NCBI GenBank assembly: GCA_947624305.1 | Contig: CANQKC010000001.1 | Span: 1-64,000, forward strand | DNA: 64,000 nucleotides | Reading direction: 5' to 3' | From: an uncultured Monoglobus sp. | GTDB lineage: Bacteria; Bacillota; Clostridia; Monoglobales; Monoglobaceae | Shown: positions 33,401 through 55,046 of the stretch, one piece after another | Numbering within the stretch: position 1 is the first letter of the stretch | How the letters are laid out: each line of letters begins with the position of its first letter | The notes under the pieces: generated by a model | The model's input: the letters and a program-made list of their open reading frames with translations, nothing else | Told to the model about the DNA's origin: nothing | Database searches by the model: none | Position numbers and translations under genes: made by a program

Positions 33401-36400
33401 GGTCATCGGTCCATGGGACGACAAAAAGATTGTTAAAGTCGAGACAAGATACAATACATCATATGCAATAACGGAAGACAGAGTTCTTTACGCTTGGGGA
33501 CAGGATGACTCAAGACAGGTAGGAGATGTTGAACACAAGAATGCTTTATCTCCGGTTCAGATTGCTACGGACGTAAATGATGTGTTAGCCGGAAAAGAAC
33601 ATGCTGTTGCAATAAAAACAAATGGTGATGTATATGGCTGGGGAGACAGCACATATGGACAGTTAGGCAAATCATCCGGTTATTACGATACACCTGTAAA
33701 GATTTATTCAACTGCACGGAAAATAGGTGTGGGTGATTATCAGACTTTTGTTATTGACACGTCATCAAATCTGCATGGCGTTGGTAAAAATGACAAGGGT
33801 CAGCTTGGGTTGTCAGGTACATATAATCATACATATTTCGGTGCGACAATAATGAGACCTGTTTTAGATGTTGTCGGCGGCGCTAATCATACGGTAATTC
33901 GTGACACATCGCAGTATGTGCATACCTGCGGGGATAATTCGGACGGACAGCTTGGCGTTACATTGGCAAACGGAGTTACTTATACTGAAGAAATTCAAGC
34001 AACGGGATTAAGGGCTGACAGCATATACGCCGCAGGTAATACTTCGATATATCTAAGAAGCGGAGTTGCATATCAGACCGGCAAGCAGTACTACAAGAAT
34101 ACAAAGACATTTACGAAACTTGCAGATGCACAGAATATTCGCCAGCTTGCATTAAATGATAAATACACCATAGCAGTCGATTCATCAAATCATGCATGGC
34201 GTTGGGGAAAGATGTCAACAGATATATCAAGATATACATATGAAAACGGTATAATTTCACCGGTTAATAAAATTCATTATCCGTATGCAATACTATCGAT
34301 GGATGCTTTCAGAAATCAGTCGCTGGCGATTAATGAGTTAAATCAAGTAGTTGCTTGGGGCGAAGGTTACTATGCGGACGGCTCTGACCAAATGAAGATA
34401 AACAGGTATCCCACGGTAATCAACGGTATAAGCAATCCTATACAGGTAAGCCGCGGCAAAAACCACAACCTTGTACTTGACGCGGATGGAAATGTATGGG
34501 GTTGGGGCAGCAATACCAACTATCCTATGGGCAGCAATCTCGGAGGAAAGGTCAAGACTGCAACTAAGTTAAGCGGCATAAGCAATGTTCAGCAGATAGC
34601 CGGAGGAACAGAGTTCAGTATATTCTTGAAGAAAGACGGTACTCTGTGGGGAGTAGGCGTAAACAGCTCCGGTCAGCTCGGTCAGGGTAATTACACAAGA
34701 GCCGGAACGCCTGTGCAGATAACAACAAAAAATAACTTTAAGAAAGTAACGGTTGGAGAAAACTATGTTGTTGCATTGGCGAGCGATGGTATATATAGTT
34801 GGGGAGGCAATAGCCTCGGTCAGCTGGGTACCGGAACCAAAACAGGCAGAACAACACCGCAAAAAATCACTCTTGATCTAGATGCTGATGAAACAGTAGT
34901 TGATATTAAGGCTACAATAAATTATTGTATGGCTCTTACAGATAAAGGCAATCTGTACACTTGGGGAGATAATGGAAGCGGTCAGCTTGGTATTGGCGGT
35001 GTAGAACAGATTCTTGGTCCGGTAAAAGTAACACGTGTCTCGAATGTTGCTGCCATAGGCGGCGGAAAGCTTCACGCCCTTATAGTTAGTAAGAACAACT
35101 ATGTATATAGTTGGGGTTATAGAGATGAGCGCTTGGGTTATTACTCAGCTAAAAATGTATCAGCACCATCCGGAGTAGGCGCATTAAGCGGTAAAAAAAT
35201 TACTAGCGTTGCAGGTGGATTTGATTATTCGCTGGCTCTGAGCCAAGATGGCACACTTTATACATTTGGTTTGAACCAGTATGGTCAGCTTGGTGATAAT
35301 TCTGATAAGGCAATCAACGTGTGGTCACCGCTTATTAGCGACCTTAAATGGCTTAGAGAAGAAATGAACAAAATCTCTCAGCCAATAACCGAAAGCATTT
35401 CTTTGCCAACAACTGCACCTAATGGAAGTACAATCACTTGGGCAAGCGGCAACACATATTACATAGGAAACGACGGCTCCTTAGTGAGCCGTCCGGATGC
35501 CTATGGCAGCGATACTTCTGTAAGATTCACGGCAACTGCAACAAACGGAAACGAAAGTGTTAAGTCGATTTATGATATTGAAATTGCGCAAGATCCCTCT
35601 GTAAAGCCGTCAACAGATATACCGATCCGAAGCATAGGTATGGAGTATGACCAAATTTATCCCGACTCTGCGCCCGACGTATATCCCGAGATCAATGCTG
35701 TATCAATGAGTGTGATCGATGAGGCAAATGGGGTGTACGAGCTTACTATACGCGACGATCAGTATTCATGTTCAAGCAGCGGAAATCCGTTCTTTTTCTG
35801 GAGCGCAAGACAGGGCACTTTTCTGCCGGTTGAAGGATATAACGATTACAGAAGCGTAAGATTCACGGTAGACCCCGACGCGCTTGGTAAGTCAGTCAAG
35901 GTAGTTGTGGGCATAGGCGACAGGCTCGGATATATTGACCGAAAAGCGGTAATAATCGACAGCGTGGGTGAGGCGAGCGCCGCGAACGAAGAAGTGGAAG
36001 CTATGCCCATAGAGAATGACTATGCCAATAACATAGCGATAGGTATAGATACATCTGTAAATATGCTGAACTTCGATCCGGGAAACACAAAGAGCCATTT
36101 AAGCTCGATTGAGGGATTGATAGAATCGGCGGGAGATAATTCAAATATAGTACTTGTCAGCAAGGAAAACTTCGGTTATACTAAAGATGTGGAGAGCGCC
36201 AAGAACTCTCTTGCCTTAATGACCGAATCAGACTATGCCGGCGAGACAGATGCTTTGTCGCTGCTTGAAAGATGTGACAAGGCGCTTTGTGATGCGGAAA
36301 ATATCCCTCAAAGCGGGAACAAAACTGCTGTAATTTTCGTCCAATATATAAAGGATAAAGACAGCCTTAAAGCAAAGATTAATGAACTGGAAAATAAAGG

Positions 36401-39400
36401 CATATCGGTATATATAATGCTGCTGTCGAGCGAAAACAGCAATATAGAACAAGTAAAAACAAGCGACAGTCCGCTGAAACTGCGTTTGAATGTGACGGAA
36501 CTGTATGATATATTTACAAACGAGTCTGAGATAATGACAATGGCGAATAATGTAGATGTGGCAGTGGACTATATAACATATTTGAGTGATTTCAGAGTTG
36601 GCAAACATGAAATGAATGTAAATGATAAGAATAATATAACTGGAGCATATATTGCTTCTATATTAGGTATGTATAGTTGTTTACCGGCTTTTACAGATGA
36701 ATATAACCTATTTGAACCTACACCTAATGCTACACCGCTTGCTGATGATATAAACAATATAGCTATTGGTTATTTGACAAATGTATCAGCATCATCAGCA
36801 AATACCATATCGTCATTTTATTCAGATTTAATCAGTATGGATAATAAAAGTGCTTATGTTAAAAATGATGACGTTGATTATGTCATTAGACGTAATTTAA
36901 AATTTCGGTTTCCTGTAATTGCTAAAAATAATAGTGATGTGTGCCTGATCACTCAAGTTGATAACGGAGTTTATAAAGGATATATTAATAATAATTTTAG
37001 TGATTTATCTAATATATCTGGTGTATCCGCAGTATTTGATACATATCAATACTTACTTGCTACATCTGAAAGTAAAACGGTTACCGTCATTAATGATTTT
37101 AGTGATGGCAGCGAGAAATTTTACGAGAATATTTATTACACCTGTCCGGATGATTATTTGTCTAAAGACTATACGGATGATTTAGAAGTTGATGAAGATG
37201 ATGTAAACGATAATACAAGAGCTATTTTATATGATAGTTCTAAAGGTTATCCGCAAAAAAATATAACAATTCAAACAAAGAATGTAAAGTCAGAAAATGA
37301 TAAGGTAGTACAAAAACCGTTTTATAAGATAAGCGATTTAAATGCTGATGATATTATCTTATGTGGAATCAAGACAACATATGAAAATTGTTTGCCAAAT
37401 ACTCTTTATACAACGAGAATGTACAATGTTAAGAAGTATGATGACTTACAAGTGGTTAATACTAATGCTGAACCTTGGTACTATCCTTCTTTGATAAAAG
37501 CAACAAATATTGGAATGGTCGGCGGTGATACAGATTCATATACTGGAATTCCCAATGAAAATGGTTCAAAAATTTTCTTTAATCCTGAGAGAAATGTTAC
37601 ATATGGCGAATTCTTAAAGATGCTTATTGAGTCAGCAGATATACCTGATAAAGATATACAGACGTCTGTTACCAATCAGGAAAATAACCCCGAAATGACG
37701 GATGGAATAATAGGTCATTGGGCGAAAAAATATCTTTGCTATGCAATTGATAAAAATATTATAAGTATTTTTAATATTAAAGGTAATAACTCCCCTGATT
37801 CCAATGTGTTACGGTGCGATGCTGCGTATATGATTAATAGGTTATATATAGATGATACAAACAAACTTGATGTGCAAATACCGTCTAATTTATATAAGTA
37901 TAATACCTCAATATCATGTGATAGAAACACATTATGGAACTCCGGTAAAGCATTTGTTGATCAAAGTTCAATAAGATATTGTAAAGATGAGATACAACAA
38001 TTATATTTAAACCAAGTATTGGAAGGGGATCAGTTTGGATGCGTGAACTCCGAAGAAAATATTACTCGTGCAGAAGCAGTGAAAATGTTAATAAAATGTA
38101 GATATGTTTTGGATGAAGGACTGGAGAACGCAAAACTATCAACGGAAGGTAAAGATAGTAATTTTATTGATTTTCTAAGAAATAGTAAATTGCGTATTGA
38201 TAATACTAATGACGAAAACCATTCAGGCGAATTCTACTTTGTCGCGCCAAAAACCGGATATTATTATATTAATAACATGACTAATTGCTCAGTTACAATC
38301 AGCGATATGCATAAGCGTGAGATAACAGGTTTGGATGCTTATAATTCTTCTGATCAGAAAACATATGGCGCAAGATATAATATTCTTAAAGGTGAAGTTG
38401 CATATATAAAAGTTAACAAAACATCAAAAGATTATTCTTTTGATATATCAGTGCCAAATGATGATGAACTTGTTTTTGCTCCTGACAGATCGGGCACGTT
38501 TATTTATGATAATCATCCGGAATATATATTACAAGAGGATCTTGCAGATGACAGAATCGCAGATGGATTTGGTAACTCGACATTGACTTCAAACAACAAT
38601 TTGTCTGGTATGGTTGATATAGTAACATCTCATTTAATTAGACAGGGGACATTAAATCCAGATATGTTCAACACAAAAAGCGTATTAGATAATGACAAAA
38701 TAAATACTGAAAGAGTCTATTATGATTGCCGTATTACAAATACAGGAACTCAAGATTTGACGGTTATAGTTGAGGGAGTTGGTATACAGGCCGCAGGTCA
38801 ATATGGCCCCGTAAGCGATCTTACACATTTTTCAAGTGCTGGTTTGCAAGCATGGGCTGATTTAAAACAGATTGATTTATTAAATTCGGAGAATTACGTT
38901 GCTAATTATAATAATCTATTTCATAATTATATGCATAATAATTCAGAATATGAACACAACAAACCCTTTAGTGGAAACCTTGCAGATACATTAAATTCAG
39001 AAAAACACTTAATTAAAATTCCGAAAGGAGAAAGTAGATGGGTTTTTACAAATGATTATCGACCTAAATTGCCAATCTATAGAGATTATGGTTACTCGTT
39101 TTGCTCCCTCATGAGATTAAATATTATAGGAGAGGCAAAGATTGAGACGATGATGTTCCTAAATCAAGATGCAATCAATTCACATCCACTTAATGGAAAA
39201 ATTTATACTTCTAAATCAGAAAGAGATTATAGCAAGGATGCTGTAAATAAGTACGATGGTTCGCCTGGCGAAAAAAATGAAATTGGAACAAAATATAAAG
39301 GCGTAGCAAGTTCTTTAGCAAAAGTGTCAAATAGTGTAAGTTGGAATATTTTAAAAACCGATTCATATTATAAACCTACGGTTTTTAACTTGATAAAACC

Positions 39401-40136
39401 AAATGGAATTCAAATAAGTAAAACAAATGGTAAGTTTAACTTGAATCCGATTAGTAATACTGTTTTAGAACGGGATCAAGTTAATGCTATTGAGGGCGAT
39501 GTATGGATGACTCATATTAATCCTGCAAATGATTCTTATAATTCTATAAGAGGAGCAGATTCAGATATGCTAGGATTTATATACGATGACGGAATAAAAA
39601 CATGGTTATTTGATACCCATCATGAGGATGCAGAGCATGGTAATAAAATAATTACTACGCAGAGTATTAATGATGGTGGGAAAAATTATTTGGACTCAGC
39701 TGGATCTATGGGAAATTTTAGTATTATTGAGGAATATAATTTGACATTAAATAATTATACTGATTCTACACAAAGAGTATCATATCGAGTAGGTACAGAT
39801 TCGGCATTGTATTTCAGATATAAAGTCGGACAAAACGATTATATTAATAGTATAAAATGTGAAACTACAGCAAGTACAAAGATTTATGATTATGAAAGAG
39901 ATGAAAATGGGAACATCATTTTAAATGAGAATCAAGAGCCGATCATAAAAAAAGATATGAACGGTGAAGATATAGTCTTGGAGTACTTTACTAATATTTA
40001 TGATATCTTTAATGTGACAGTTCCTGCACAAAACAATGGTCAACCCGGAAAAATAGATGTACACTTTGAAGTTGTTGTACCTAATGTTGGACATGGCGGA
40101 TTCTATAATATGTTATATACAGAAAACTTACAGTAA
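30453..40136 (+). CDS. 3,227-aa secreted subtilase with RCC1 repeats
   Basis: A giant exported protease. Order: signal peptide (1-27); propeptide-like region ending in HAEYVQPDYVLEVS; acidic linker (about 205-310); S8 subtilisin domain with Asp in RIAVIDDKID (~323), His in HGTHVTGIIAS (~364), Asn in CAAGNN and Ser in GTSMAAAYV (~508); about 21 RCC1 repeats (about 600-1620, e.g. GSNTYGQLG); an Ig-like domain (about 1645-1710); a von Willebrand-A-like region (about 1850-2020, AIGIDTSVNML); two SLH-like segments around 2340-2560; a long C-terminal region of unknown fold. All three catalytic residues are present. ACGGAGGGAAA precedes the ATG. It follows the sigma unit and precedes another wall-binding protein. 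Confidence 0.88.
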   Translation: MKRVTSIILVLAMMVSMVFSGVIYVNAEENEENITTESEMQEQVEDATDFVAEDFEPISENEQVLSLDVENLAASYTSRFIVKTDEDISDKDINKAYTAAKESKTEAVEAIRLSDENSFLKLNLDEICEEDEIAISDAARNLINTSNDSSISDNVAEQFFITEDQKIIVLPEIVDPTVFVDKLSDELGRHAEYVQPDYVLEVSDFEDGKIEPDESVEEDTSDENQDTDINESEIIQSDNTDESVSETVPFEDKPETVIPDEILDATAEPIGDENEANEFVEEIEVTTSPLPTLLPGIDTLNNLQDDIQAAWQITKGAGARIAVIDDKIDATHPDFSSQIVNAYDVVNDTELTYNPEISSEYMHGTHVTGIIASTVPEAEIIPIAAFNGGQAYTSDIIKAIEYAREQGAEIVNCSFGSTNDNPALKEAMENSNMLFVCAAGNNRVSVDETPIYPASFDIDNVISVTSLNQDMGFSYYSNYGENVDIAMYGRNVYNTLPDGDYGEQSGTSMAAAYVTAAAGMAKSIGEENIKESILSTAWSLSNLQGKVCAGKKLCYSNLVYRISNTDVVEIYPEDDFDVNQEVRTPTEDWELFHSIETVDVEAGGSNTAFIKSDGTLWMAGSNTYGQLGVSTYSLKYSATPIQVVGVSDVVQVAVGDTHCIALDSRGNAYVWGSNTYHEVSSSTGTAIYTPVIHPISNIEYVEAGTNTTFVIQKRKGIYANGANNYGQLGVGTRNTTSTPTLVQGSQYASIVKSYGEHMLFIKDGVLWGSGSNNHYILGSTALGTQIYPVEITEAANVDTGRNHVITIDSSGTVHSWGANDYGQCGTGENGNILLGVKNAIDVKCGYDFTMVLLRDGTVMTWGYNNDGQIGDNSDKRCYTPYKVPISTPIYDIAAGSIHSIALDDENVLWYWGGNAYGQYGNGKTIASFKPTTEKNGSIISRKIAIGEDHILYIDESGKLYAKGKNTYGQLGLGNTTMQEDFKEVIGPWDDKKIVKVETRYNTSYAITEDRVLYAWGQDDSRQVGDVEHKNALSPVQIATDVNDVLAGKEHAVAIKTNGDVYGWGDSTYGQLGKSSGYYDTPVKIYSTARKIGVGDYQTFVIDTSSNLHGVGKNDKGQLGLSGTYNHTYFGATIMRPVLDVVGGANHTVIRDTSQYVHTCGDNSDGQLGVTLANGVTYTEEIQATGLRADSIYAAGNTSIYLRSGVAYQTGKQYYKNTKTFTKLADAQNIRQLALNDKYTIAVDSSNHAWRWGKMSTDISRYTYENGIISPVNKIHYPYAILSMDAFRNQSLAINELNQVVAWGEGYYADGSDQMKINRYPTVINGISNPIQVSRGKNHNLVLDADGNVWGWGSNTNYPMGSNLGGKVKTATKLSGISNVQQIAGGTEFSIFLKKDGTLWGVGVNSSGQLGQGNYTRAGTPVQITTKNNFKKVTVGENYVVALASDGIYSWGGNSLGQLGTGTKTGRTTPQKITLDLDADETVVDIKATINYCMALTDKGNLYTWGDNGSGQLGIGGVEQILGPVKVTRVSNVAAIGGGKLHALIVSKNNYVYSWGYRDERLGYYSAKNVSAPSGVGALSGKKITSVAGGFDYSLALSQDGTLYTFGLNQYGQLGDNSDKAINVWSPLISDLKWLREEMNKISQPITESISLPTTAPNGSTITWASGNTYYIGNDGSLVSRPDAYGSDTSVRFTATATNGNESVKSIYDIEIAQDPSVKPSTDIPIRSIGMEYDQIYPDSAPDVYPEINAVSMSVIDEANGVYELTIRDDQYSCSSSGNPFFFWSARQGTFLPVEGYNDYRSVRFTVDPDALGKSVKVVVGIGDRLGYIDRKAVIIDSVGEASAANEEVEAMPIENDYANNIAIGIDTSVNMLNFDPGNTKSHLSSIEGLIESAGDNSNIVLVSKENFGYTKDVESAKNSLALMTESDYAGETDALSLLERCDKALCDAENIPQSGNKTAVIFVQYIKDKDSLKAKINELENKGISVYIMLLSSENSNIEQVKTSDSPLKLRLNVTELYDIFTNESEIMTMANNVDVAVDYITYLSDFRVGKHEMNVNDKNNITGAYIASILGMYSCLPAFTDEYNLFEPTPNATPLADDINNIAIGYLTNVSASSANTISSFYSDLISMDNKSAYVKNDDVDYVIRRNLKFRFPVIAKNNSDVCLITQVDNGVYKGYINNNFSDLSNISGVSAVFDTYQYLLATSESKTVTVINDFSDGSEKFYENIYYTCPDDYLSKDYTDDLEVDEDDVNDNTRAILYDSSKGYPQKNITIQTKNVKSENDKVVQKPFYKISDLNADDIILCGIKTTYENCLPNTLYTTRMYNVKKYDDLQVVNTNAEPWYYPSLIKATNIGMVGGDTDSYTGIPNENGSKIFFNPERNVTYGEFLKMLIESADIPDKDIQTSVTNQENNPEMTDGIIGHWAKKYLCYAIDKNIISIFNIKGNNSPDSNVLRCDAAYMINRLYIDDTNKLDVQIPSNLYKYNTSISCDRNTLWNSGKAFVDQSSIRYCKDEIQQLYLNQVLEGDQFGCVNSEENITRAEAVKMLIKCRYVLDEGLENAKLSTEGKDSNFIDFLRNSKLRIDNTNDENHSGEFYFVAPKTGYYYINNMTNCSVTISDMHKREITGLDAYNSSDQKTYGARYNILKGEVAYIKVNKTSKDYSFDISVPNDDELVFAPDRSGTFIYDNHPEYILQEDLADDRIADGFGNSTLTSNNNLSGMVDIVTSHLIRQGTLNPDMFNTKSVLDNDKINTERVYYDCRITNTGTQDLTVIVEGVGIQAAGQYGPVSDLTHFSSAGLQAWADLKQIDLLNSENYVANYNNLFHNYMHNNSEYEHNKPFSGNLADTLNSEKHLIKIPKGESRWVFTNDYRPKLPIYRDYGYSFCSLMRLNIIGEAKIETMMFLNQDAINSHPLNGKIYTSKSERDYSKDAVNKYDGSPGEKNEIGTKYKGVASSLAKVSNSVSWNILKTDSYYKPTVFNLIKPNGIQISKTNGKFNLNPISNTVLERDQVNAIEGDVWMTHINPANDSYNSIRGADSDMLGFIYDDGIKTWLFDTHHEDAEHGNKIITTQSINDGGKNYLDSAGSMGNFSIIEEYNLTLNNYTDSTQRVSYRVGTDSALYFRYKVGQNDYINSIKCETTASTKIYDYERDENGNIILNENQEPIIKKDMNGEDIVLEYFTNIYDIFNVTVPAQNNGQPGKIDVHFEVVVPNVGHGGFYNMLYTENLQ
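32250..35330 (+). repeat. ~21 RCC1 coding repeats
   Basis: About 21 units of roughly 50 codons, most with a Trp-Gly-x-Asn ... Gly-Gln-Leu-Gly core, though several (near 34,060-34,400) lack the GQLG end. RCC1 domains form seven-bladed propellers, so 21 units would make three propellers in a row; that count is mine by eye. Confidence 0.75.
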
Positions 40137-43224: not shown

Positions 43225-43320
43225 ATACTGTCTGCATTGGACGCTCGCAGTCCGCCGCATATTTCCTTTCAAAATCATATGAAAGGAATTGTTTTCATGA
43301 AAAAATTTGAATTATTTTTT

Positions 43321-43358
43321 AATACTCCGAAAAAACTGCGGAGATTACGTTTTATAAT
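43321..43358 (+). promoter_or_regulatory. promoter with ACTCCG/CGGAG palindrome (copy 1)
   Basis: A 23-base element at 43321-43343 contains ACTCCG and CGGAG around an A-rich centre and stands nine bases before TATAAT (43353-43358). The same 23 bases at the same distance from TATAAT occur at 52545-52582. It lies just upstream of the HTH gene at 43382, with a predicted leader of about 17 bases. Confidence 0.6.
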
Positions 43359-43381
43359 GGTCATGAAAGGAGGTGCGGTCG

Positions 43382-43796: not shown

Positions 43797-43801
43797 GTAG
43801 T

Positions 43802-44713
43802 TTATATATGAAATTTATTCCGTGGATGTTTGGTGCGAAGTATTTCTTTTTGCTTAGAAGATGTTACATGAGTGTATATTTGCGTGGTCGTTATCGAGCT
43901 GTGTCCTAATATTTTCTGTATATATCTGATATCGACATCTTCCTCAAGAAGCATCGTTGCCACAGAGTGGCGGAACATATGCGGCGTTATATGGATTTCG
44001 GAGCCGATTTGCTTTTCCAGACGCAGTAATACAATTCTGACCGACTGCTCGGAAAAACGTTGCTTTCGGTTGTTCAAAAAGAAAAAGCCGTCCGGCTGTA
44101 TATATTCTCCGAAAGTGGATTTATATAGTTTAAGTATAGCTAAGACTTCCTCGTTCTCGATTTGTATAATTCGCTCCTTTGATCCTTTTCCGAAAATACG
44201 CACGGTTTGAGTTACAAGATTGATATTGTAAGTTTTGAGGGAACATATTTCCGAGATTCGCGCACCTGTGGCAAACAAAAGCTCAAATATTGCCGTGTTG
44301 CGTATCTCGATCTGTTTTTGATACTCTGTTTTAGCGTTCTCGATGTTATCATATGATGTAACAATTAGATTTTTAATAGTTTTTTCGGGAATAGTCCGGG
44401 GCAGCGTTAAAGGCTCTCTGAAAGCGGTGTCAACTTTATCAAATGGGTTATAATCAATGATATCATAGTAATACAAATAGCGTACAAACGCCTTAAGGGC
44501 TGCAATCTTACGCCGGACAGTTTTGGGTTTATAGCATTCATGTAAATGCTGAACATATTCCGCAATATCACCCTTTTCAATACCTATACCGTTTTTAAAC
44601 TCGCAGTATTGTCTCAAATCAATTTTATATGCTTTAAGCGTATGAGAACTGAGCTTTTTCTGTTTTTCACAGTACTTTAAGTATTCCATAATTTCATAGC
44701 GTAAATCAAACAT
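43802..44713 (-). CDS. XerC/D-like tyrosine recombinase, candidate invertase
   Basis: A 303-aa tyrosine recombinase. The start is ATG at 44713, because AAGGAGAT lies five bases upstream; a longer frame adds 21 unlikely residues. N-terminal SAM-like domain (SSHTLKAYKIDLRQYCEF), then catalytic Arg in FATGARISEICSL, Lys in RIFGKGSKERII, His-x-x-Arg in TPHMFRHSVATMLLEE, His in LGHSSITTTQIYTHV and its Tyr. All catalytic residues are present. The gene ends far from any ICE genes but starts 160 bases from one copy of a 35-bp inverted repeat that bounds a 5.37-kb segment, which makes it a candidate DNA invertase like RecV of Clostridioides difficile. Confidence 0.88.
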   Translation of the reverse strand: MFDLRYEIMEYLKYCEKQKKLSSHTLKAYKIDLRQYCEFKNGIGIEKGDIAEYVQHLHECYKPKTVRRKIAALKAFVRYLYYYDIIDYNPFDKVDTAFREPLTLPRTIPEKTIKNLIVTSYDNIENAKTEYQKQIEIRNTAIFELLFATGARISEICSLKTYNINLVTQTVRIFGKGSKERIIQIENEEVLAILKLYKSTFGEYIQPDGFFFLNNRKQRFSEQSVRIVLLRLEKQIGSEIHITPHMFRHSVATMLLEEDVDIRYIQKILGHSSITTTQIYTHVTSSKQKEILRTKHPRNKFHI

Positions 44714-44831
44714 ATAACTATCTCCTTGTAAGTAAATTGAAATAATTATATAACATAAATTCACATATGTCGACATATGAAGAGAATAATAAAAAATAGG
44801 TTAAAATTAGTGTAATAATGCCAATTTTACC

Positions 44832-44860
44832 TTGACTTTCCTACAAAAATATGGTAATAT
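44832..44860 (+). promoter_or_regulatory. promoter outside the left inverted repeat
   Basis: TTGACT (44832-44837) and TAATAT (44855-44860) are 17 bases apart. Transcription would start near 44,867, seven bases before the 35-bp repeat, and run into the segment. I find no comparably good promoter outside the right repeat pointing inward. Confidence 0.65.
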
Positions 44861-44873
44861 AAATATGGTCGAT

Positions 44874-44908
44874 AAATAAAGGATAACTTAGAATTATGTA
44901 TATAAAAT
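44874..44908 (+). repeat. 35-bp inverted repeat, left copy
   Basis: These 35 bases (starting AAATAAAGGATAAC) are exactly the reverse complement of 50207-50241. Identity stops at once on both sides. The core has ATAA and TTAT half-sites around CTTAGAA, similar in size to a tyrosine-recombinase crossover site. The ATP-grasp gene starts 43 bases to the right. Confidence 0.9.
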
Positions 44909-44951
44909 TTATTTATTTTTCAATCAATATATATTTGGGGAGTGTGTAAAA

Positions 44952-46037
44952 ATGCATAAAGCTTTTATTGATTTGATTTCATTAGCACAAAATTATAAGT
45001 ATAAAATTGATATTTTTTTCATCGCAAATATAAAGAATAAAACACAAAATTATTCAGATTATTCAGATTCTTCTGTTGATGCAGAATTTCTTTCGGAAGA
45101 AAATTATAACAGGATCGTAAATTCCTTAAAAAATCAGGGGTTTTGTGTAAAATGCTATTATGATGAAGAAGACTTTATTACTGATTGTGCTAAACATGAT
45201 TATTTTAAAACTTCCGCTAAGCAAATTGTTGTTATAAATTCTGCTCAAAAAGGAACATTGATTGGACGTAAATCTCTTATTCCGTCATTTTGTGATTTGT
45301 TTAATTTTTGGTATGCAGGGAGCAATCCGTATATATGTAGCTTAGCACGAGATAAATTCAAATCAAGTTGCTTATTAGAAAATTTGGGTATATCCTGTGC
45401 AAAAAGTTATCTTTACAATAATAAAACAGGATGGCTATTGGGGCAAAAACCACCATGTGGATCTAAGGTTATAGCTAAATTAAATTATGAAGCTTCTAGC
45501 ATTGGCTTAACCGAAGAAAACTGCTTTATATATAAATCAGAGAAAGATGACTTTATATATAGCTTAGCTCAAAAATATAAGCAATCCATAATAGTACAAG
45601 AATTTATAGATGGTTATGAAATAGAATTTCCATTTATTAAAACAAACCAATCTTTAGCAACTTTGCCTGTATCAGTAGCATTTAATACTGATGGTAAAAT
45701 GGGAACAGATTTTTTAACTTATGAATTGCGTAAGAATAGAGAATATCATTTTTATGATTATCGTCAAATTAATAATGAAATAAGTAGTTTATTGTTAGAA
45801 TGCTCTAAAAAAGTTATTGACTCATTAAACTTAGATGGATTATGTAGGATAGATTTTAGGATTACAGATAACAACGAATATTATGTGACCGATATTGCAA
45901 CAAATCCTGGATATACAGAAATCACATCAGTGCGATTTGCTTTTTCTACACTCGGATTTGATTATAATCAATTGCTATTAATTTTGGTAGGTGCAATTAT
46001 CCAAAAATATAAGGAGAATAATATTGATGAGATATAA
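44952..46037 (+). CDS. ATP-grasp ligase, Ddl-like
   Basis: A 361-aa protein with GGGGAGTG before its ATG. The C-terminal two thirds follow the D-Ala-D-Ala-ligase-like ATP-grasp fold: LARDKFKSSCLLENLGI (~135), VIAKLNYEASSIGLTEEN (~172-190), IVQEFIDGYEIEFPFI (~215-230), CRIDFRITDNNEYYVTDIAT then NPGYTEITS (~295-325). The last motif has Asp-Ile-Ala where Ddl enzymes have Glu-x-Asn for metal binding, so substrate or activity may differ. These enzymes join a carboxylate to an amine using ATP. It is the first gene of four overlapping genes, AT-rich throughout. It could make a peptide-like metabolite or modify a cell-wall precursor. Confidence 0.8.
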   Translation: MHKAFIDLISLAQNYKYKIDIFFIANIKNKTQNYSDYSDSSVDAEFLSEENYNRIVNSLKNQGFCVKCYYDEEDFITDCAKHDYFKTSAKQIVVINSAQKGTLIGRKSLIPSFCDLFNFWYAGSNPYICSLARDKFKSSCLLENLGISCAKSYLYNNKTGWLLGQKPPCGSKVIAKLNYEASSIGLTEENCFIYKSEKDDFIYSLAQKYKQSIIVQEFIDGYEIEFPFIKTNQSLATLPVSVAFNTDGKMGTDFLTYELRKNREYHFYDYRQINNEISSLLLECSKKVIDSLNLDGLCRIDFRITDNNEYYVTDIATNPGYTEITSVRFAFSTLGFDYNQLLLILVGAIIQKYKENNIDEI

Positions 46038-46464
46038 AATGGAATACAAATTACCATCTCCTGCTGAATGGCAGTATTTAAGAAGATTCACAGATTGGAA
46101 AATATTTTCGAAAGATGTATTCATGGTAGCAGCAAAAAAATCCATTTTTGGAGTTTGCGTCTATGATAATAAAAAAATTGTAGGTATGGGAAGAATCACA
46201 GGAGATGGAATTATAAGTTTTTATATTCAAGATATAATTGTTGTTGATACTTATAGACATAAGCATATAGGAACTTTGATCTTGAAGCATTTATTGACCT
46301 ATATAAAAAAACATGGAGAAAAGGATGCGACTATTGGTCTTTTTTCGCATATAGGAACAGAAACGTTTTATGAGAATTTTGGCTTTCTTGTACGAGAAAA
46401 AAATGGAAAAGGCTCGGGTATGTATTTGCCATATTCCAAATTGGAGGAATACTTGCATGAATAA
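46027..46464 (+). CDS. GNAT-family N-acetyltransferase
   Basis: A 145-aa acetyltransferase. ATG 46027 overlaps the end of the ATP-grasp gene, with AAGGAG ten bases before it. The acetyl-CoA-binding motif is VVDTYRHKHIGTLILKHLL, followed by the FYENFGFLVREK strand pair typical of the GNAT C-terminus. It probably acetylates an amine on the product or substrate of its neighbours. It overlaps the next gene by eight bases. Confidence 0.85.
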   Translation: MRYKMEYKLPSPAEWQYLRRFTDWKIFSKDVFMVAAKKSIFGVCVYDNKKIVGMGRITGDGIISFYIQDIIVVDTYRHKHIGTLILKHLLTYIKKHGEKDATIGLFSHIGTETFYENFGFLVREKNGKGSGMYLPYSKLEEYLHE

Positions 46465-46978
46465 ACCGATTTATATTATCTGCGGCAAATCCGGGGTTGG
46501 GAAAACAACTTTGATTAAAAACCTGTGTTTACGGAACAATTTGAAAACACTTACATCATATACAACAAGACCAAAAAGAACTTCTTCTGAAAATAGCCAT
46601 ATTTTCGTTTCAGATGATGAGTTTGACTGTATACAAAACAAATTTTTAGAATTTTCGTTTCTAAATTATAGGTATTGTATAACGCGTGATCAAATTTTGA
46701 ATGCGGATATACTTGGACTACCGCCAAATGCGTTCCATGATTTAGGTGAAAAGAAATCTCTTCTTTATCGGGAAATTAAGTTGATTTATGTTATGACATC
46801 GGAAAAAACTAGATATGAAAGAATGATTCATAGAAACGATTCTATAGAAAACATATCTATAAGAATGAGCGGAGAGATAGAATATTTTGACAATATTGAA
46901 AAACATGCGGACAAAAAGGTATATAACTATGATCTAGAAGAATGTTTAGAAGAAATTGAGAGGTATATGTATGAATAA
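46457..46978 (+). CDS. guanylate-kinase-like P-loop protein
   Basis: A 173-aa protein with GGAGGAAT ten bases before ATG 46457. The P-loop is CGKSGVGKTTLIK (residues 8-20). LTSYTTRPKR (~33-42) matches the GMP-binding signature of guanylate kinases, and RYERMIHRND sits where their lid lies. It is somewhat shorter than housekeeping Gmk. In an operon with ligase, acetyltransferase and methyltransferase it may phosphorylate a special substrate rather than GMP. It overlaps the methyltransferase gene by eight bases. Confidence 0.75.
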   Translation: MNKPIYIICGKSGVGKTTLIKNLCLRNNLKTLTSYTTRPKRTSSENSHIFVSDDEFDCIQNKFLEFSFLNYRYCITRDQILNADILGLPPNAFHDLGEKKSLLYREIKLIYVMTSEKTRYERMIHRNDSIENISIRMSGEIEYFDNIEKHADKKVYNYDLEECLEEIERYMYE

Positions 46979-47732
46979 TTATAGAATATCACCACAAAAT
47001 CGTTTTTCTGAAAGAGCGGAGTTCTATAAAGCGTCGAGGCCAAGCTATTCTGATGAAATACACGAGATTTTTGATTCTTTACATCTGAGTGATATGTCTA
47101 TTGTTGCAGATATTGGTGCAGGAACTGGTGTTTTCTCAAAAATGCTGTTGGAAAGAGGATATTATGTATATTCTATAGAACCAAATAAACATATGCTTAT
47201 CGAATTAAAAGAAGAATTAAAAAAATATTCTAAATCAATTGTAATTAACACTTGCGCGGAAGATACATCGCTTTCAGATAAAAGTGTGGATCTAATAACT
47301 GCAGCACAATCATTTCACTGGTTCACACCGTATAAATTTAAGAAAGAATGTAACCGTATTTTAAAGAAAGATGGGAAAATACTCATTACGTGGAACGTGA
47401 TTAACGAAAACACACCGATTATGCAAGATATTAAAAAATGCATGAAGTCTTTTAATAATGATTTTCATAGTTTTAATGGTGGCATTCAACTAGAGAAAAT
47501 CCATTATTGCATTCCAACTGCAAAAAGATTAACATATAACCATAATCTTTTTTATGATAAAAATAAATTTCGTAAAAGATGGCTTTCATCATCTTTTTCT
47601 CCACTTAAGAATAGCAACGAATATTATTCATTTATTCAGAAATTAGATGCAATATTTGATTATTATTCTCACAATAAAATGGTGATTGTTGAAAATCAAA
47701 CACTTGTATACATAGGAACCCTGTTTGATTAA
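46971..47732 (+). CDS. class I SAM-dependent methyltransferase
   Basis: A 253-aa methyltransferase of the type-11 kind. Motif I is VADIGAGTGVFSKMLLERGY (~43-62), the acidic end of strand 2 is YSIEPN, and motif IV is LITAAQSFHWF. The N-terminus (NRFSERAEFYKASRPSYSDE) is typical of small-molecule methyltransferases. Its stop codon overlaps the stop of the opposite-strand ATPase gene by four bases, so the two units inside the inverted-repeat segment abut tail-to-tail with no spacer and no terminator between them. Confidence 0.85.
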   Translation: MNNYRISPQNRFSERAEFYKASRPSYSDEIHEIFDSLHLSDMSIVADIGAGTGVFSKMLLERGYYVYSIEPNKHMLIELKEELKKYSKSIVINTCAEDTSLSDKSVDLITAAQSFHWFTPYKFKKECNRILKKDGKILITWNVINENTPIMQDIKKCMKSFNNDFHSFNGGIQLEKIHYCIPTAKRLTYNHNLFYDKNKFRKRWLSSSFSPLKNSNEYYSFIQKLDAIFDYYSHNKMVIVENQTLVYIGTLFD

Positions 47733-50188
47733 TTATCAGTATCCCAATTTGAAAGAGATGCGAGAACATATCCTATTCCAAAGAAGTCCCATGACTTTGA
47801 CTTAAATTTTGGTTTATAAGCATGAACACAATTCCACCATTCTTTTGGTTGTGTTTTTGTTTGACTATTAATAAGTTCATAAATAATATTATGGTGTTCT
47901 TGATAATAAACATGGTTGTTTAAATTAGGAATTATACTAGCAACATCGTCTAGATATTTAATAGCCTCTTTTTTATTTCCTAATAAATACAAATATATTG
48001 ATAAATTAGTGTAACTTCTAAACTTATAAAAACCCTCTATATCGTTTTCAACATTCTGTTCTTTTATTTCATCTAATAAAGTTTTATATGCTTTTTCTAT
48101 ATTATTGTTAAGAGCATAAAAAACACTTAAATTAGATGTGTAAGTTAATCGTTCTGCAATAATAGGTAAGTTTCTTATGATATTTTCTAAAGATTTTATA
48201 CATTCTGATATTTTCATTTTTTTGCATAAATATGCATTAATTATATAATTGTTGTATAAAATTTGTTGACGTGGAAAGGCAAAATTAAAAAAGTCCTTTT
48301 CTAACTTTAATGCTTTTTCCATGTATTCATATCCATCGGCAAACATACCATTCAATGTTAAAATTGATGAATAATTTACTAATGCAATATAATAGTGTTT
48401 AAGATAGTCCGGAACCAGAAATTCATCTTTCGGTCCAAAATAATCAACTGCTTTCTTCATAAAGACCATTGAAGTTTTACAGCCGTGCACAATATTATAT
48501 GTTCGGCGTACAATGTTCAAACGAATTCCCGCATTTTCATCATATTTATAGCGAGGACGTAAATTTTGCATCAAACGATACTCTGCTTCTGACGATTCTT
48601 TAATCATTCCTAAATGTGCATATACAGACATTAATCTATTCTGAATACGTTCATATATTTCAATTTCTCCATCAACAGCATCAATTACTTCAAAACTTTC
48701 TAAACACTCAAAAGATTTTAAACGCATTTCTTTATCGAGCGATTTTGTATAGCAAAAGGACTGCAATATGCGCTTTTCTGCTACTAATACTGCAGGATAA
48801 AACTCTTCAATTAAATCAAGTTCATTTAATGCTTCTTCATAGTTTTTTTTGCTATGAAAATCATACGCTTTTTCCATTAGCTCTAAATAGAATTTCAAAT
48901 CATCTGAAAAAATAGGCATTGCCTCATTTTTTGTTTCTGAAGAAACTTCTCCGTAGTTTCGGATTTGTCTCAAAAAATCCAATAAATAAAGAAGAGCTGC
49001 CTTATCCAATTCTCCAGCCTTTAATAAATATCTTGCTCTCCTCAAATACTCAGCTGGCTTAATCTGGGAAAGACATTGTTCAATTGTTAAATAATAGGAA
49101 TATTCATGATTGCTTTCCTTAATTCTTTCCGCAAATAACTCATGAACAATTTGATGCGCAAAGGTAGCAATATTTTTTTCGGATGTTTCCTGTATTAATT
49201 CCATTTCTGTTGCATGCGAAATGATTTCTTTAAACACATGCGAATTAATTCGAGTAACTTTTTCTAATTCATAATACGAAAAAGATATTCCAATAATAGA
49301 AGCATATTCAAGCACCTTAGAAATTAACTCCCCTGTAGCTCCAAACTCTTTTAAACGCCTTTCTAAAAGTTCGTTTAGATAATCTTTGCCATCTACATTT
49401 TGGAAATCTAATAAACTTTTTCCTTTTTCTAATTCTCGTAAAATTTCCGTCATAACTTTCATATGATTATTTATTAAATTAAACAAGATATGCAGCTGCG
49501 CATCAGAAGTATCATAAGTTTGCAAACGCTGTTCTATAAGCGCTTTAAATTCGTTATATTCTAAAACGGGAAATTCTAAGTGTTTAGCGTTGGTTTTTGA
49601 TATAATCTCATCTATATATTGCCTATGTACACAAGTTTGATTGGGAGTAATAGTAAAAAAGATTTTTATATTACTCTCTACTTTTTCAAATTCGATACGT
49701 TTGATAATTATATCTAAAAGTTGTATAGAGCGTTTATCCCACCAATGTAAATCATCAAAAAAAAGTACTGTTTTATGATTGTTAATCAAAAATTGAATTT
49801 TACTAAATATTTCTTGCTCAATCGGGTTTAGTACAAGTTCTTTTTTATTGTTGATGAGATTATTCGCAATATAGTTGGATATATTTGATATATGAGGAAT
49901 ATCTTTTGTTAGCTCAATAACACCATTCTTCAATAATTCCTCTTTGTTTGTGTATGCCAAAGAGTCAAGACCTGTTAAAAACGGATAATAGTCTTTATCG
50001 TCATGTAAATAATCGCCGGAAAAATATAAAAATAGATAATCTTGATGGTTAGATAAATACTTTTTTAATGTATAACTTTTTCCACAACCAGAATTTCCGG
50101 TAATATAAAATATTGAATTATCATAAAAAAAATAATCAATAAGATTATTCATCTTTTCTTCATGGGGATAATAATTTAAAGCTTTCAT
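47729..50188 (-). CDS. STAND-type ATPase with TPR-like C-terminus
   Basis: An 819-aa protein with AAAGGGAATG before its ATG (50188). Walker A is GNSGCGKSYT at residues 31-40 and Walker B is TVLFFDDLHWW at 140-150. The DDLHWWD form is that of AAA_16/STAND ATPases such as those in large LuxR-type regulators, but no C-terminal LuxR helix-turn-helix is present. From about residue 380 the chain is helical with TPR-like pairs (YEEALNELDLIEEFYPAVLV; IEKAYKTLLDEIKEQN). STAND proteins act as ligand-triggered switches, in regulation or in antiphage defence. It begins just inside the right 35-bp repeat. Its target is unknown. Confidence 0.8.
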   Translation of the reverse strand: MKALNYYPHEEKMNNLIDYFFYDNSIFYITGNSGCGKSYTLKKYLSNHQDYLFLYFSGDYLHDDKDYYPFLTGLDSLAYTNKEELLKNGVIELTKDIPHISNISNYIANNLINNKKELVLNPIEQEIFSKIQFLINNHKTVLFFDDLHWWDKRSIQLLDIIIKRIEFEKVESNIKIFFTITPNQTCVHRQYIDEIISKTNAKHLEFPVLEYNEFKALIEQRLQTYDTSDAQLHILFNLINNHMKVMTEILRELEKGKSLLDFQNVDGKDYLNELLERRLKEFGATGELISKVLEYASIIGISFSYYELEKVTRINSHVFKEIISHATEMELIQETSEKNIATFAHQIVHELFAERIKESNHEYSYYLTIEQCLSQIKPAEYLRRARYLLKAGELDKAALLYLLDFLRQIRNYGEVSSETKNEAMPIFSDDLKFYLELMEKAYDFHSKKNYEEALNELDLIEEFYPAVLVAEKRILQSFCYTKSLDKEMRLKSFECLESFEVIDAVDGEIEIYERIQNRLMSVYAHLGMIKESSEAEYRLMQNLRPRYKYDENAGIRLNIVRRTYNIVHGCKTSMVFMKKAVDYFGPKDEFLVPDYLKHYYIALVNYSSILTLNGMFADGYEYMEKALKLEKDFFNFAFPRQQILYNNYIINAYLCKKMKISECIKSLENIIRNLPIIAERLTYTSNLSVFYALNNNIEKAYKTLLDEIKEQNVENDIEGFYKFRSYTNLSIYLYLLGNKKEAIKYLDDVASIIPNLNNHVYYQEHHNIIYELINSQTKTQPKEWWNCVHAYKPKFKSKSWDFFGIGYVLASLSNWDTDN

Positions 50189-50206
50189 ATTAACATTCCC
50201 TTTGTG

Positions 50207-50241
50207 ATTTTATATACATAATTCTAAGTTATCCTTTATTT
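50207..50241 (-). repeat. 35-bp inverted repeat, right copy
   Basis: Exact reverse complement of 44874-44908. It lies 19 bases upstream of the STAND ATPase start. In relation to the two convergent units both copies have the same orientation, each as the leader of its unit, so inversion between them would keep both leaders intact. No target-site duplication is seen outside (GTCGAT left, CTTAAG right). Confidence 0.9.
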
Positions 50242-50266
50242 CTTAAGTGTAATCGTCAAAATATAC

Positions 50267-50294
50267 TTGCAATTATAATAATTTGTGGTATAAT
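50267..50294 (+). promoter_or_regulatory. promoter of the AAA_14-like ATPase gene
   Basis: TTGCAA (50267-50272), a 16-base spacer and TATAAT (50289-50294). It points away from the inverted-repeat segment. Confidence 0.65.
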
Positions 50295-50333
50295 AATTAT
50301 AATGACTCAATAAAATATAAAGAGGTGACAAAC

Positions 50334-51722
50334 ATGAATAAATTTATAGACAGAGACAGCGAAATGGAAATCCTGCAAAATGAATATGACAGGAACGGTT
50401 CTTCCCTTGTTATACTTTACGGTCGTAGGCGCGTGGGAAAAACTACATTGATTTCGGAATTTATAAAAGATAAATCGGCGCTGTTTTTCCTTGTAAGCGA
50501 GGAAAGCGAGGTGCAAAACAGAGCGGATTTCAAGAACAAAGCCGCTGAATTTATTGACAATGATTTGCTGCGCGGAGCTTCGGTGCAGGACTGGAATATT
50601 ATATTTAAGGCGATTATGAACACGCCGTTTGCAAAAAAACCTATTATAGTTATAGATGAGTTCCAATATCTCGGAAAGTCAAATCCGGCATTCCCGTCCG
50701 TTTTTCAGCGTATATGGGAAGAAACACTCAAGGATCGCTCCGTTATGGTGATTTTATGCGGCTCACTGATTTCTATGATGGAGTCACAGACGCTTGCCTA
50801 TAACAGCCCTTTATATGGTCGGCGTACCGCTCAAATCAGGCTTAAACAAATTCCGTTTCGGTATTATAAGCAATTCTTTCCTCAAAAAAGCGAAAGGCAA
50901 CTTATTGAGTTGTATTCCGTAACCGGAGGAGTTCCGAAATATATTGAGGCACTTGCGGAATGTGATGATATTTACACCGCAATAAAAAAAAGCGTTCTGA
51001 ACCCTATGAGCTATCTGTATGATGAGCCGCATTTCCTCTTACAGCAGGAGGTATCGGAAATAGGCAGCTATTTTTCCGTGATACGAGCCATAGCCGCCGG
51101 AAACAGTAAGTTGTCAGCCATAGCGTCGCTGCTCGAGGTTAAATCCACGAGCCTTACGAAATATCTGAAAACTCTTATTGACTTGGATATTCTTGAGCGG
51201 GAAGTCCCGGTGACGGAAGATAATCCCCAAAAAAGTAAGAAGGGCTTGTATAAAATAAAGGATAACTATATCAGATTTTGGTTTGCGTTTGTCTATCCAA
51301 ATATGAGTTTCATAGAAAGCGGTCATGCAGAAATTGCAGCGGGGAAAATACGCGATGGGCTCGTCAGTCGTCAAACCGCGTTCGTGTATGAGGATATATG
51401 TCGCGAGAGGATGTGGGAGCTAAATACCTCCGGCGCTTGGCCGTTCCTGTTCTCGAGAGTCGGACGATATTGGTCGGGAAACACTGAAATTGACATAGCC
51501 GCAATAGATCCGGATGACGCGAATATTATACTTGGAGAATGTAAATATTGGAACGAACCTGTAGGGTTAAATGTTCTGCGCGATTTGGAAGAGAAAACAA
51601 AAGATGTTGATTGGCACAGAAATACGAGGAAAGTTTGGTATGTTTTATTCAGTGTAAGCGGATTTACACCTGAATTGGAAGAACTGGCCGCAAAACGTGA
51701 GGACATTTTGCTGGTAAGTTAA
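50334..51722 (+). CDS. AAA ATPase with C-terminal DUF234-like nuclease fold
   Basis: A 462-aa protein starting at ATG 50334 with AGAGGTGA six bases upstream. Walker A is YGRRRVGKTTLISEF (~27-41), Walker B is KPIIVIDEFQYLGKS (~99-113), then CGSLISMMES. A winged helix follows around 260-310 (SLLEVKSTSLTKYLKTLIDL). The C-terminus ends in IDIAAID...LGECKYW, the Asp/Glu-x-Lys pattern of the DUF234 restriction-endonuclease-like fold. This family is widespread in anaerobes and archaea, and its role is unclear (defence or toxin-like roles are suggested). It has its own promoter, is more GC-rich than the adjoining segment, and is probably independent of it. Confidence 0.85.
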   Translation: MNKFIDRDSEMEILQNEYDRNGSSLVILYGRRRVGKTTLISEFIKDKSALFFLVSEESEVQNRADFKNKAAEFIDNDLLRGASVQDWNIIFKAIMNTPFAKKPIIVIDEFQYLGKSNPAFPSVFQRIWEETLKDRSVMVILCGSLISMMESQTLAYNSPLYGRRTAQIRLKQIPFRYYKQFFPQKSERQLIELYSVTGGVPKYIEALAECDDIYTAIKKSVLNPMSYLYDEPHFLLQQEVSEIGSYFSVIRAIAAGNSKLSAIASLLEVKSTSLTKYLKTLIDLDILEREVPVTEDNPQKSKKGLYKIKDNYIRFWFAFVYPNMSFIESGHAEIAAGKIRDGLVSRQTAFVYEDICRERMWELNTSGAWPFLFSRVGRYWSGNTEIDIAAIDPDDANIILGECKYWNEPVGLNVLRDLEEKTKDVDWHRNTRKVWYVLFSVSGFTPELEELAAKREDILLVS

Positions 51723-52509: not shown

Positions 52510-52544
52510 ATTTGACCGTCAAAAAATTTTTTAAAAAATTTTTA

Positions 52545-52582
52545 AATACTCCGAAAAAACTGCGGAGTATAGGATATATAAT
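52545..52582 (+). promoter_or_regulatory. promoter with ACTCCG/CGGAG palindrome (copy 2)
   Basis: The same 23 bases as at 43321-43343, again nine bases before TATAAT (52577-52582). The position where a -35 box would lie is AAAAAA in both copies, so the palindrome likely binds an activator or replaces the -35 contact. It would start the structured RNA near 52,589. Confidence 0.6.
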
Positions 52583-52588
52583 GATTTT

Positions 52589-53293: not shown

Positions 53294-53411
53294 ATGCAGA
53301 GGCAAAATTGACATAAATATATTTGGTATAGTAGTATTTTAATATAAGATGTTTGAAAAGTTAATATGAATAATGACTTTGCATAATTAAATTATGTGGG
53401 GTGACAAAACC

Positions 53412-55046
53412 ATGAAAAAAGCATATTGCTTATACAGAGTGTCAACCAAAAAGCAGGTTGATGTCCAAAAAGACGATATACCTATGCAAAAATTAGCCTG
53501 TCATGAGTTTGCCGAGCAAAACGGCTGGATAATTACAAAAGAGTTTTATGAGAAAGGCGTATCGGGCTTTAAAGTATCTGCAAATGACAGAGATGCCATA
53601 CAGGATTTAAAAACGGCGGCTCAAAAACATGAGTTTGAGGTACTGCTTGTATATATGTTTGACAGGCTCGGACGAATCGACAGCGAAACGCCGTTTGTCG
53701 TTGAGTGGTTTATATCTCAGGGCATAGAAGTATGGAGCACACAGGAGGGGCAGCAAAAGCTTGAAACTCAGGGCGATAAACTTATGAACTATATCAGATA
53801 TTGGCAGGCAAACGGAGAAAGTGTTAAAACATCAATGCGTCTAAAAACAAGGATGGCACAACTTACAGCCGAGGGAACATATCATGGAGGAGTGGTTCCG
53901 TTTGGCTACAGAGCCGTAAACAAAGGAAGGAAGAATAAGAAGGGTCAGCCGGTAAAAGACCTTGAACTTGATCCGGGCGAAGCCGAAATTGTAAAGACCA
54001 TATTTAATAAGACTCTGAACGAAGGCTACGGCTCATACAGATTAGCGGAATATATAAACAGCCTCGGCATAAAAACTCATAACGGCAGCTGCTTTCAATG
54101 CAATACGATCAACAGAATATTAAAGAATAGGCTGTACTGCGGCTACTATGCCGCGGGTGATACGATCTCTCCAAAGCTTGAACACCTTGCGGTTATAGAC
54201 GACAATGTATTTGACAGCGTTCAGCATATCTTAAAACAGCGTTCGGGCATAAATGATGAAAAACAGCATATAGCCAGAACAACAAAGGGCAAAACGCTGC
54301 TTTCTGGAAATATTTATTGTGCGCATTGCGGCGGAGCGCTTAACGCTTCAAATAAAATCGAAAGCCATAAGAGAAAAGACGGAACGGTATGTTCACATCA
54401 GACTATAAGATATATTTGCTATCATAAAGCCCGAAAATTAAATGAGTGCGATGGACAATCCGTATATATGGCAAATAAAATCGACAATGTTATTCTTGAA
54501 ATCGTAGAGCATTATTTATCCGCGATCAAGCAAACGCCGAGAGATAAAGCTCTTGAGCTGCGCTACAGCCGAGAAATAGACGAAAAGAAAAAACTTAAAG
54601 CCGAGCTTGCAAGGCAGAAGTTTAAACTTGAAAATCGCCTGAACGAACTTGCCGCAGAGATCGGTAAATGTTTGAGCGGCGAAAGCGTGTTTACAATAGA
54701 TGTGCTGTCGCTGTCTATTGACTCAACAAAGAAAGAGCTTAAATCAACAGCGGATAAATTAACGGAATGTGATACAGTGCTCTCGGAAAAGACAAAAATT
54801 TTCAATAAACTCGACTATTACTATCAGCAGTTTGTGACATGGGCGGACGAATTTAAAAACGCTTCAAACGAGCGGAAGAAGATGATAATTTGCGGGTTGA
54901 TAGACTATGTAAAGGTGGGCAGAGGGTACAAGATAGAAATTAAGTTTAATATAAGCTACAGACAATTCTTCAGCGAAAACTGCCGCTATATTCCGAAATG
55001 TAATAATTTAGCGGCAAACGTAACGGAGGAAACAACAGCAATATAG
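53412..55046 (+). CDS. large serine recombinase
   Basis: A 544-aa site-specific recombinase. ATG 53412 is chosen because GTGGGGTGA lies eight bases before it, and this puts the catalytic serine at residue 11 (YCLYRVSTKKQ). Resolvase domain: YMFDRLGRIDSETPFVVEW. Recombinase domain: VPFGYRAVNKGRKNKKGQP then LYCGYYAAGD. Zinc ribbon: GNIYCAHCGGAL and later RYICYHKARKLNECDG. A coiled coil lies around residues 395-470. Large serine recombinases integrate and excise mobile elements without host factors. It lies 66 bases from the first tRNA-Asn-derived repeat, so it may use that site, although most enzymes that use tRNA genes are tyrosine recombinases. Confidence 0.92.
   Translation: MKKAYCLYRVSTKKQVDVQKDDIPMQKLACHEFAEQNGWIITKEFYEKGVSGFKVSANDRDAIQDLKTAAQKHEFEVLLVYMFDRLGRIDSETPFVVEWFISQGIEVWSTQEGQQKLETQGDKLMNYIRYWQANGESVKTSMRLKTRMAQLTAEGTYHGGVVPFGYRAVNKGRKNKKGQPVKDLELDPGEAEIVKTIFNKTLNEGYGSYRLAEYINSLGIKTHNGSCFQCNTINRILKNRLYCGYYAAGDTISPKLEHLAVIDDNVFDSVQHILKQRSGINDEKQHIARTTKGKTLLSGNIYCAHCGGALNASNKIESHKRKDGTVCSHQTIRYICYHKARKLNECDGQSVYMANKIDNVILEIVEHYLSAIKQTPRDKALELRYSREIDEKKKLKAELARQKFKLENRLNELAAEIGKCLSGESVFTIDVLSLSIDSTKKELKSTADKLTECDTVLSEKTKIFNKLDYYYQQFVTWADEFKNASNERKKMIICGLIDYVKVGRGYKIEIKFNISYRQFFSENCRYIPKCNNLAANVTEETTAI

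Follow-up and report, generated by a model that had tools for sequence, protein, structure and literature searches.

Phase variation by DNA inversion is most familiar from surface structures, where it usually proceeds by flipping a promoter or by swapping versions of one protein. In the G and C segments of phages Mu and P1 and in the Piv pilin switch of Moraxella, two convergent alternative coding units are inverted behind a fixed promoter; these systems employ serine or Piv recombinases, and the alternating units are versions of one protein, not different operons. Here we describe a locus of an uncultured Monoglobus sp. in which a segment of about 5.3-5.4 kb, bounded by inverted repeats and adjoined by a gene for an Xer-like tyrosine recombinase, apparently alternates between two unrelated operons; the locus lies in a stretch of 64,000 nucleotides (contig CANQKC010000001.1, positions 1 to 64,000), hereinafter the window. 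We infer, with a probability of about 0.86, that site-specific inversion places one of the two operons behind one fixed promoter. This scheme had been proposed in an earlier, sequence-only reading of the window, and it is now supported by the matched centres of the recombination sites, the existence of both orientations, the breaks of assemblies at the sites and a promoter conserved on one side only.

In the vpma locus of Mycoplasma agalactiae, inversions by Xer1 place the genes singly behind a unique promoter (PMC2268961). Like vpma and the vsp locus of M. bovis, the present locus combines a locus-adjacent Xer-type tyrosine recombinase, sites in 5' untranslated regions and a unique promoter (PMC2268961; PMC3047005), but these are multi-gene loci of paralogous surface lipoproteins, whereas here, in different hosts, a two-unit segment carries two unrelated operons. 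In Ureaplasma, a single inversion alternates two oppositely oriented open reading frames in the UU172/UU171 and mba/UU376 elements (PMC3047005), which differ from the window locus in that they encode surface antigens, have sites partly in coding sequence and lack defence-type cargo. The RecV switch of Clostridium difficile cwpV, offered as the analogue in the sequence-only reading, has in common with the window a site-specific recombinase, inverted repeats and a fixed promoter outside, but its 21-bp repeats enclose a segment of 195 bp without promoter or gene, downstream of the fixed promoter (PMC2784873); moreover, on/off control of cwpV acts via the leader and recV is unlinked to the site, whereas the window segment holds five genes in 5.4 kb. 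RecV is not, then, the nearest analogue; closer in logic are the Xer-type systems of Mycoplasma and Ureaplasma, in which genes are swapped, or the phage G-segment and Piv systems. The principle is already known from Xer1, Ureaplasma and RecV; the differences lie in the cargo, namely, pairs of unrelated, probably cooperating operons with a validated defence system among them, and in how widely one recombinase family occurs together with its site rule. The literature searched, the coverage of which was incomplete, yielded no prior account of invertible cassettes with Thoeris or STAND genes.

The two repeats of the window are exact reverse complements over their entire 35 bp, and identity ends abruptly on both sides, just as first read. 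The chance expectation for a copy of the repeat is 0 (100 shuffles of the window), and no further copy was found in the 64-kb window with up to 3 mismatches allowed. Between the repeats, an operon that encodes an ATP-grasp ligase, a GNAT acetyltransferase, a kinase-like protein and a methyltransferase converges with a STAND ATPase gene, with overlapping stops as had been noticed before (4 bp, 47729-47732); all these domain calls, and that of the recombinase, held up in domain searches. The start codon of the STAND ATPase gene is only 18 nt inside the right repeat. No terminator-like structure was detected between the tail-to-tail overlapping units, and no transposase is encoded among the open reading frames between the repeats.

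The recombinase gene most likely starts 161 bp from the left repeat, in agreement with the position given to it by the sequence-only reading. Its product matches the NCBIfam models of XerC (234 bits, cut-off 335) and XerD (231 bits, cut-off 330) but falls short of both cut-offs, which sets it apart from the housekeeping XerC/XerD enzymes that act on dif. The presumed catalytic residues R152, K176, H245, R248, H271 and Y280 are invariant across the homologues. Adjacency to the site, the recurrent linkage between site and enzyme and the conservation of the catalytic residues indicate that this is probably the intact, and by prediction active, cognate recombinase of the repeats. The hexamer TGTCGA/TCGACA, the most enriched one in the intergenic regions between recombinase gene and site, is present in 17 of 24 such regions vs 0.9 expected. 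It covers most of a Spo0A box, and Spo0A is encoded in the genome; however, the seventh base is usually unfit for such a box and the -35 element of the recombinase promoter coincides with the hexamer, so that a Spo0A box is no more than a possibility here.

A scan based on an alignment of the recombinase yielded 80 loci, mostly from gut Clostridia; the related loci among these are not independent. Cultured carriers are Ruminococcus sp. FMBCY1 (L097), Hungatella hathewayi WAL-18680 (L075) and Bacterium C-53 (L086). Across the family, the recombinase gene is commonly adjoined by a site of the form GGATAA-N7-TTAT, the strict recombinase-proximal core being found in 41 loci with 32 distinct 7-nt centres. 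A search by the arms only, with the centre ignored, detected a second, inverted core in 14 loci, and the two cores had the same centre in 14/14. Tyrosine recombinases need matched crossover centres, a requirement that conserved arms with a locus-specific but pair-matched centre fit. Inverted sites with an identical crossover region, as in invertons, are accordingly seen both in these 14 pairs and in the perfect 35-bp pair of the window. The arms recall the ATAA/TTAT arms of Xer dif sites, but the centre here is 7 nt. Every complete pair examined, except for the degenerate L051 and L057, encloses two convergent genes or operons that start just inside the repeats. Weak matches to the site pattern in the distant genomes G069 and G090 are probably due to chance, control patterns being similarly frequent there. 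The family seems to be mainly chromosomal because a scan of viral contigs gave only three close recombinases. In L089 (10922-16996), inverted repeats of 124 bp hold several nested cores with different centres. Locus L037 has the same flanks as the window (43800-51722) and a recombinase that is 90% identical, with a wholly different cassette and a site centre that differs by one base; to judge from this comparison, the locus probably acts as a slot for cassette exchange.

Both orientations were found among related genomes, a search that the sequence-only reading had suggested. Homologous cassettes are reversed relative to the recombinase in L075 and L114 (73.7% over 2216 bp) and in L107 and L091 (65.7% over 1730 bp), and gene order indicates opposite orientations in L097/L043, L093/L102, L099/L104 and in the window and L060 vs L004 and L056. 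Contig breaks are an indirect sign of both orientations within one population. A contig ends at most 300 bp from the recombinase gene in 27 of the 80 loci, with about 3.2 expected; among the loci with a recognised core, the site side has 19 contig ends and the opposite side 0, and 22 contig ends fall 0-104 bp beyond the inner core edge. In the congeners G004 and G010, the contig that carries the right flank of the window terminates precisely where the 35-bp repeat does, at its last base; in G009, the same 56 bases form the end of contigs that carry two different flanks. One 3.6-kb contig, which starts 20 bp before a ThsA start codon and holds ThsA with the opposing operon, looks as if a cassette had been assembled separately from the flanking DNA. 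A repeat of 35 bp should not by itself halt an assembly, whereas mixed junctions would.

The genome holds only one further copy of the repeat core (22 bases, 1 mismatch); it lies in contig C47 (L004), between the start of another STAND-like ATPase gene and a homologous recombinase gene (69% identical) with a TTGACT-17-TATAAT promoter. The possibility that this copy is a solitary leader element was rejected; being part of a second recombinase cassette, it also does not bear out the concern, raised in the sequence-only reading, that the repeat might be an ordinary leader found apart from recombinases. In this second cassette, the STAND-like ATPase gene converges with an ATP-grasp gene cut off by a transposase insertion, and it is the STAND gene, not the ATP-grasp gene, that is adjacent to the promoter, i.e., the orientation is opposite to that of the window. 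The truncating transposase (L004, 107-1414) appears by eye to be IS256-like.

The fixed promoter outside the left repeat was assessed by conservation anchored on the site, consensus scoring against shuffles being powerless in this DNA. We denote as class 1 the loci in which the recombinase gene points away from the segment and as class 2 those in which it points at the segment. In the class 1 loci L004, L020, L037, L038, L039, L040 and L052, as in the window, TTGACT-17-TATAAT or a near variant lies at a similar distance outside the recombinase-side core; L031 has TTGACT-17-TATACT at the corresponding promoter, and in more distant class 1 loci a promoter of this type is less clear. In class 2, 6 of 11 loci have a TATAAT-like -10 element immediately outside the far site. 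Such conservation of position and sequence in related loci is better evidence of a promoter than any single score. On the right flank of the window, the scan detected no promoter-like site that points inward, so the STAND ATPase unit is currently at the end without a recognised promoter.

Together, these features suggest the following mechanism. By recombination between the inverted GGATAA-N7-TTAT copies, the recombinase would invert the segment 44874-50241, and the promoter outside the left repeat would transcribe through that repeat into whichever unit is adjacent, i.e., the ATP-grasp/GNAT/kinase-like/methyltransferase operon in the present orientation and the STAND ATPase gene after inversion. 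The distal unit would be silent and, because the units overlap tail to tail, would also be crossed by antisense transcription. The same module recurs in Clostridia with differing pairs of units, the partners of which would be kept in opposite phases.

The cargo of the related cassettes bears on what these pairs might be. ATP-grasp and STAND genes are paired in the window, L004, L056 and L060, the last with an extra TIR protein; ATP-grasp_3, alone or together with radical SAM, faces pentapeptide repeats in L037 and L086 and, by similarity, in L055 and L089; other pairs of the family set a glycosyltransferase against a TIR-like protein or a large NTPase, a polyprenyl synthetase against an unknown protein, and a spermidine synthase against an unknown protein. 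In five cassettes, ThsA converges with a TIR (ThsB-like) gene, by domain search in L043, L075 and L097 and by homology to these in L114 and L145; the ThsA matches in PADLOC had E-values of 1e-60 and 2e-96 for the two cassettes scanned. In L145, the TIR gene shares its operon with HAD-like and kinase-like genes. The ordinary Thoeris loci L135-L138 of other Clostridia, in contrast, carry the two genes next to each other in the same direction and lack the site, the repeat and the recombinase, and for this reason the invertible arrangement probably represents a distinct state. The window cargo itself, an ATP-grasp operon and a STAND gene, is not Thoeris, which comprises ThsA (SIR2-STALD or equivalent) and the TIR protein ThsB.

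Neither unit of the window matched a known defence family in the PADLOC scan, and the STAND ATPase has no match in PADLOC or NCBIfam and no credible one in a sequence search of solved structures. Since neither unit resembles a known defence family, we regard a defence-type role of the window pair as evenly balanced between yes and no. The structure of the STAND protein, predicted without homologues, had a mean predicted local distance difference test score (pLDDT) of 37.5 and was not used. The STAND-like proteins of the window (47729-50188), L004, L051, L056 and L060 have mutual identities of only 16-20% and a common C-terminal tail of the type P[YW]...LSFW.xD; that this tail is a target of the partner ligase is speculation.

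The sequence-only reading had cast the alternatives as a biosynthetic set or an ATPase; the proposal that two units alternate still stands, but the second is not just an ATPase, and the pairs look like partners, the clearest being ThsA and TIR in Thoeris. We think that the two units are linked in function and act as partners in systems of a conflict or defence type, held in opposite phases. More tentatively, and with somewhat less than even confidence, we propose that these widespread invertible cassettes hold the two partners of a single conflict or defence system in exclusive phases, and that the flip, perhaps regulated, briefly unites them, so that immunity would be armed or divided among cells.

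Several observations weigh against the inversion scheme or parts of it. Several recombinase loci have no recognisable site pair in the stretch examined; the inward -35/-10 pair reported in the sequence-only reading, although conserved in related loci, is not significant by itself against shuffles in AT-rich DNA; the evidence on orientation is between species; and contig breaks could come partly from strain mixtures or binning rather than from inversion. ThsA and ThsB work together, and both are required for Thoeris immunity; keeping them in opposite phases seems to defeat the system unless the proteins outlast the flip or basal expression exists. Our guess is that the second partner appears while the first persists after a flip, or that the two are divided between cells.

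Exclusive expression of one unit is somewhat less probable than inversion itself. Inversion might be real with both units transcribed either way, from weak or distant promoters, and would then tune dosage or timing; the weakness of individual promoter calls in AT-rich DNA and the need of Thoeris for both proteins favour such an arrangement, but the promoter conserved on one flank only, the 18 nt between repeat and STAND start next to a flank devoid of inward promoter-like sites, and the overlap of the units without a terminator-like structure make it unlikely. It is more doubtful still that the arrangement is an ancient, frozen one, in which the segment has ceased to flip and the sites are relics or serve as slots for the horizontal exchange of cassettes: the same flanks enclose entirely different cargo in the window and L037 and the window was assembled through both repeats in one orientation, but the repeats match perfectly, the catalytic residues of the intact recombinase are conserved, and contigs of related species break exactly at the repeat. 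The least probable alternative by our estimate, that of a transposon-like mobile element with the 35-bp repeats as its ends and the recombinase an unrelated neighbour, would account for perfect repeats around a cargo segment, for the flanks common to L037 despite different cargo and for the transposase in the damaged second cassette, but is hard to reconcile with a segment that lacks a transposase, a recombinase family that adjoins such sites, outside the pair, at many loci, centres that vary among loci yet match within a pair, and homologous segments in both orientations.

Table 1. Features of the predicted invertible locus in the window
Feature	Coordinates	Strand	Remarks
Xer-like tyrosine recombinase, ~303 aa, presumed invertase	43802..44713	-	PF00589 E 3.8e-41, PF02899
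Recombinase promoter, TCGACA-17-TATAAT	44745..44773	-	TCGACA hexamer and perfect -10 conserved
Putative fixed promoter, TTGACT-17-TAATAT	44832..44860	+	outside left repeat, pointing inward
Left inverted repeat	44874..44908	+	core GGATAA-CTTAGAA-TTAT at 44881-44897
ATP-grasp ligase, D-Ala-D-Ala-ligase-like (Dala_Dala_lig_C)	44952..46037	+	PF07478 E 3.6e-19; first gene of operon, now promoter-adjacent
GNAT acetyltransferase	46027..46464	+	PF13673 E 4.8e-12
Guanylate-kinase-like P-loop protein	46457..46978	+	PF00625 E 8.6e-08
S-adenosylmethionine (SAM)-dependent methyltransferase	46971..47732	+	PF08241 E 2.2e-17; last gene of operon
STAND/AAA ATPase with TPR repeats, alternative unit	47729..50188	-	PF13401 E 1e-06, TPR_2
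STAND leader sequence			AAAATCACAAAGGG
Right inverted repeat	50207..50241	-	core at 50218-50234
ATPase_2/DUF234 flanking gene, outside segment	50334..51722	+	flank common to G004, G010 and L037

In the surroundings of the locus, a 65-nt direct repeat (43295-43359 and 52519-52583, 78% identical) brackets the recombinase gene, the segment and the flanking ATPase gene, and this pair could delimit a larger mobile unit. A short way downstream of the segment, domain search identified a large serine recombinase gene (53394-55046). Elsewhere in the window (30453-40136), a 3227-aa protein resembles, judging its translation by eye, a subtilase followed by many RCC1-like repeats.

In these Clostridia, one recombinase family appears to serve many unrelated cargo pairs behind a fixed promoter, among them one in which the two genes of a validated immune system are separated, and the rule that GGATAA-N7-TTAT lies beside the recombinase makes such cassettes findable. 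If the proposed scheme is true, it would explain the repeated breaks of assemblies at these loci and the loss of cassettes from assemblies, and gut bacteria would maintain heritable, reversible diversity in their immune state.

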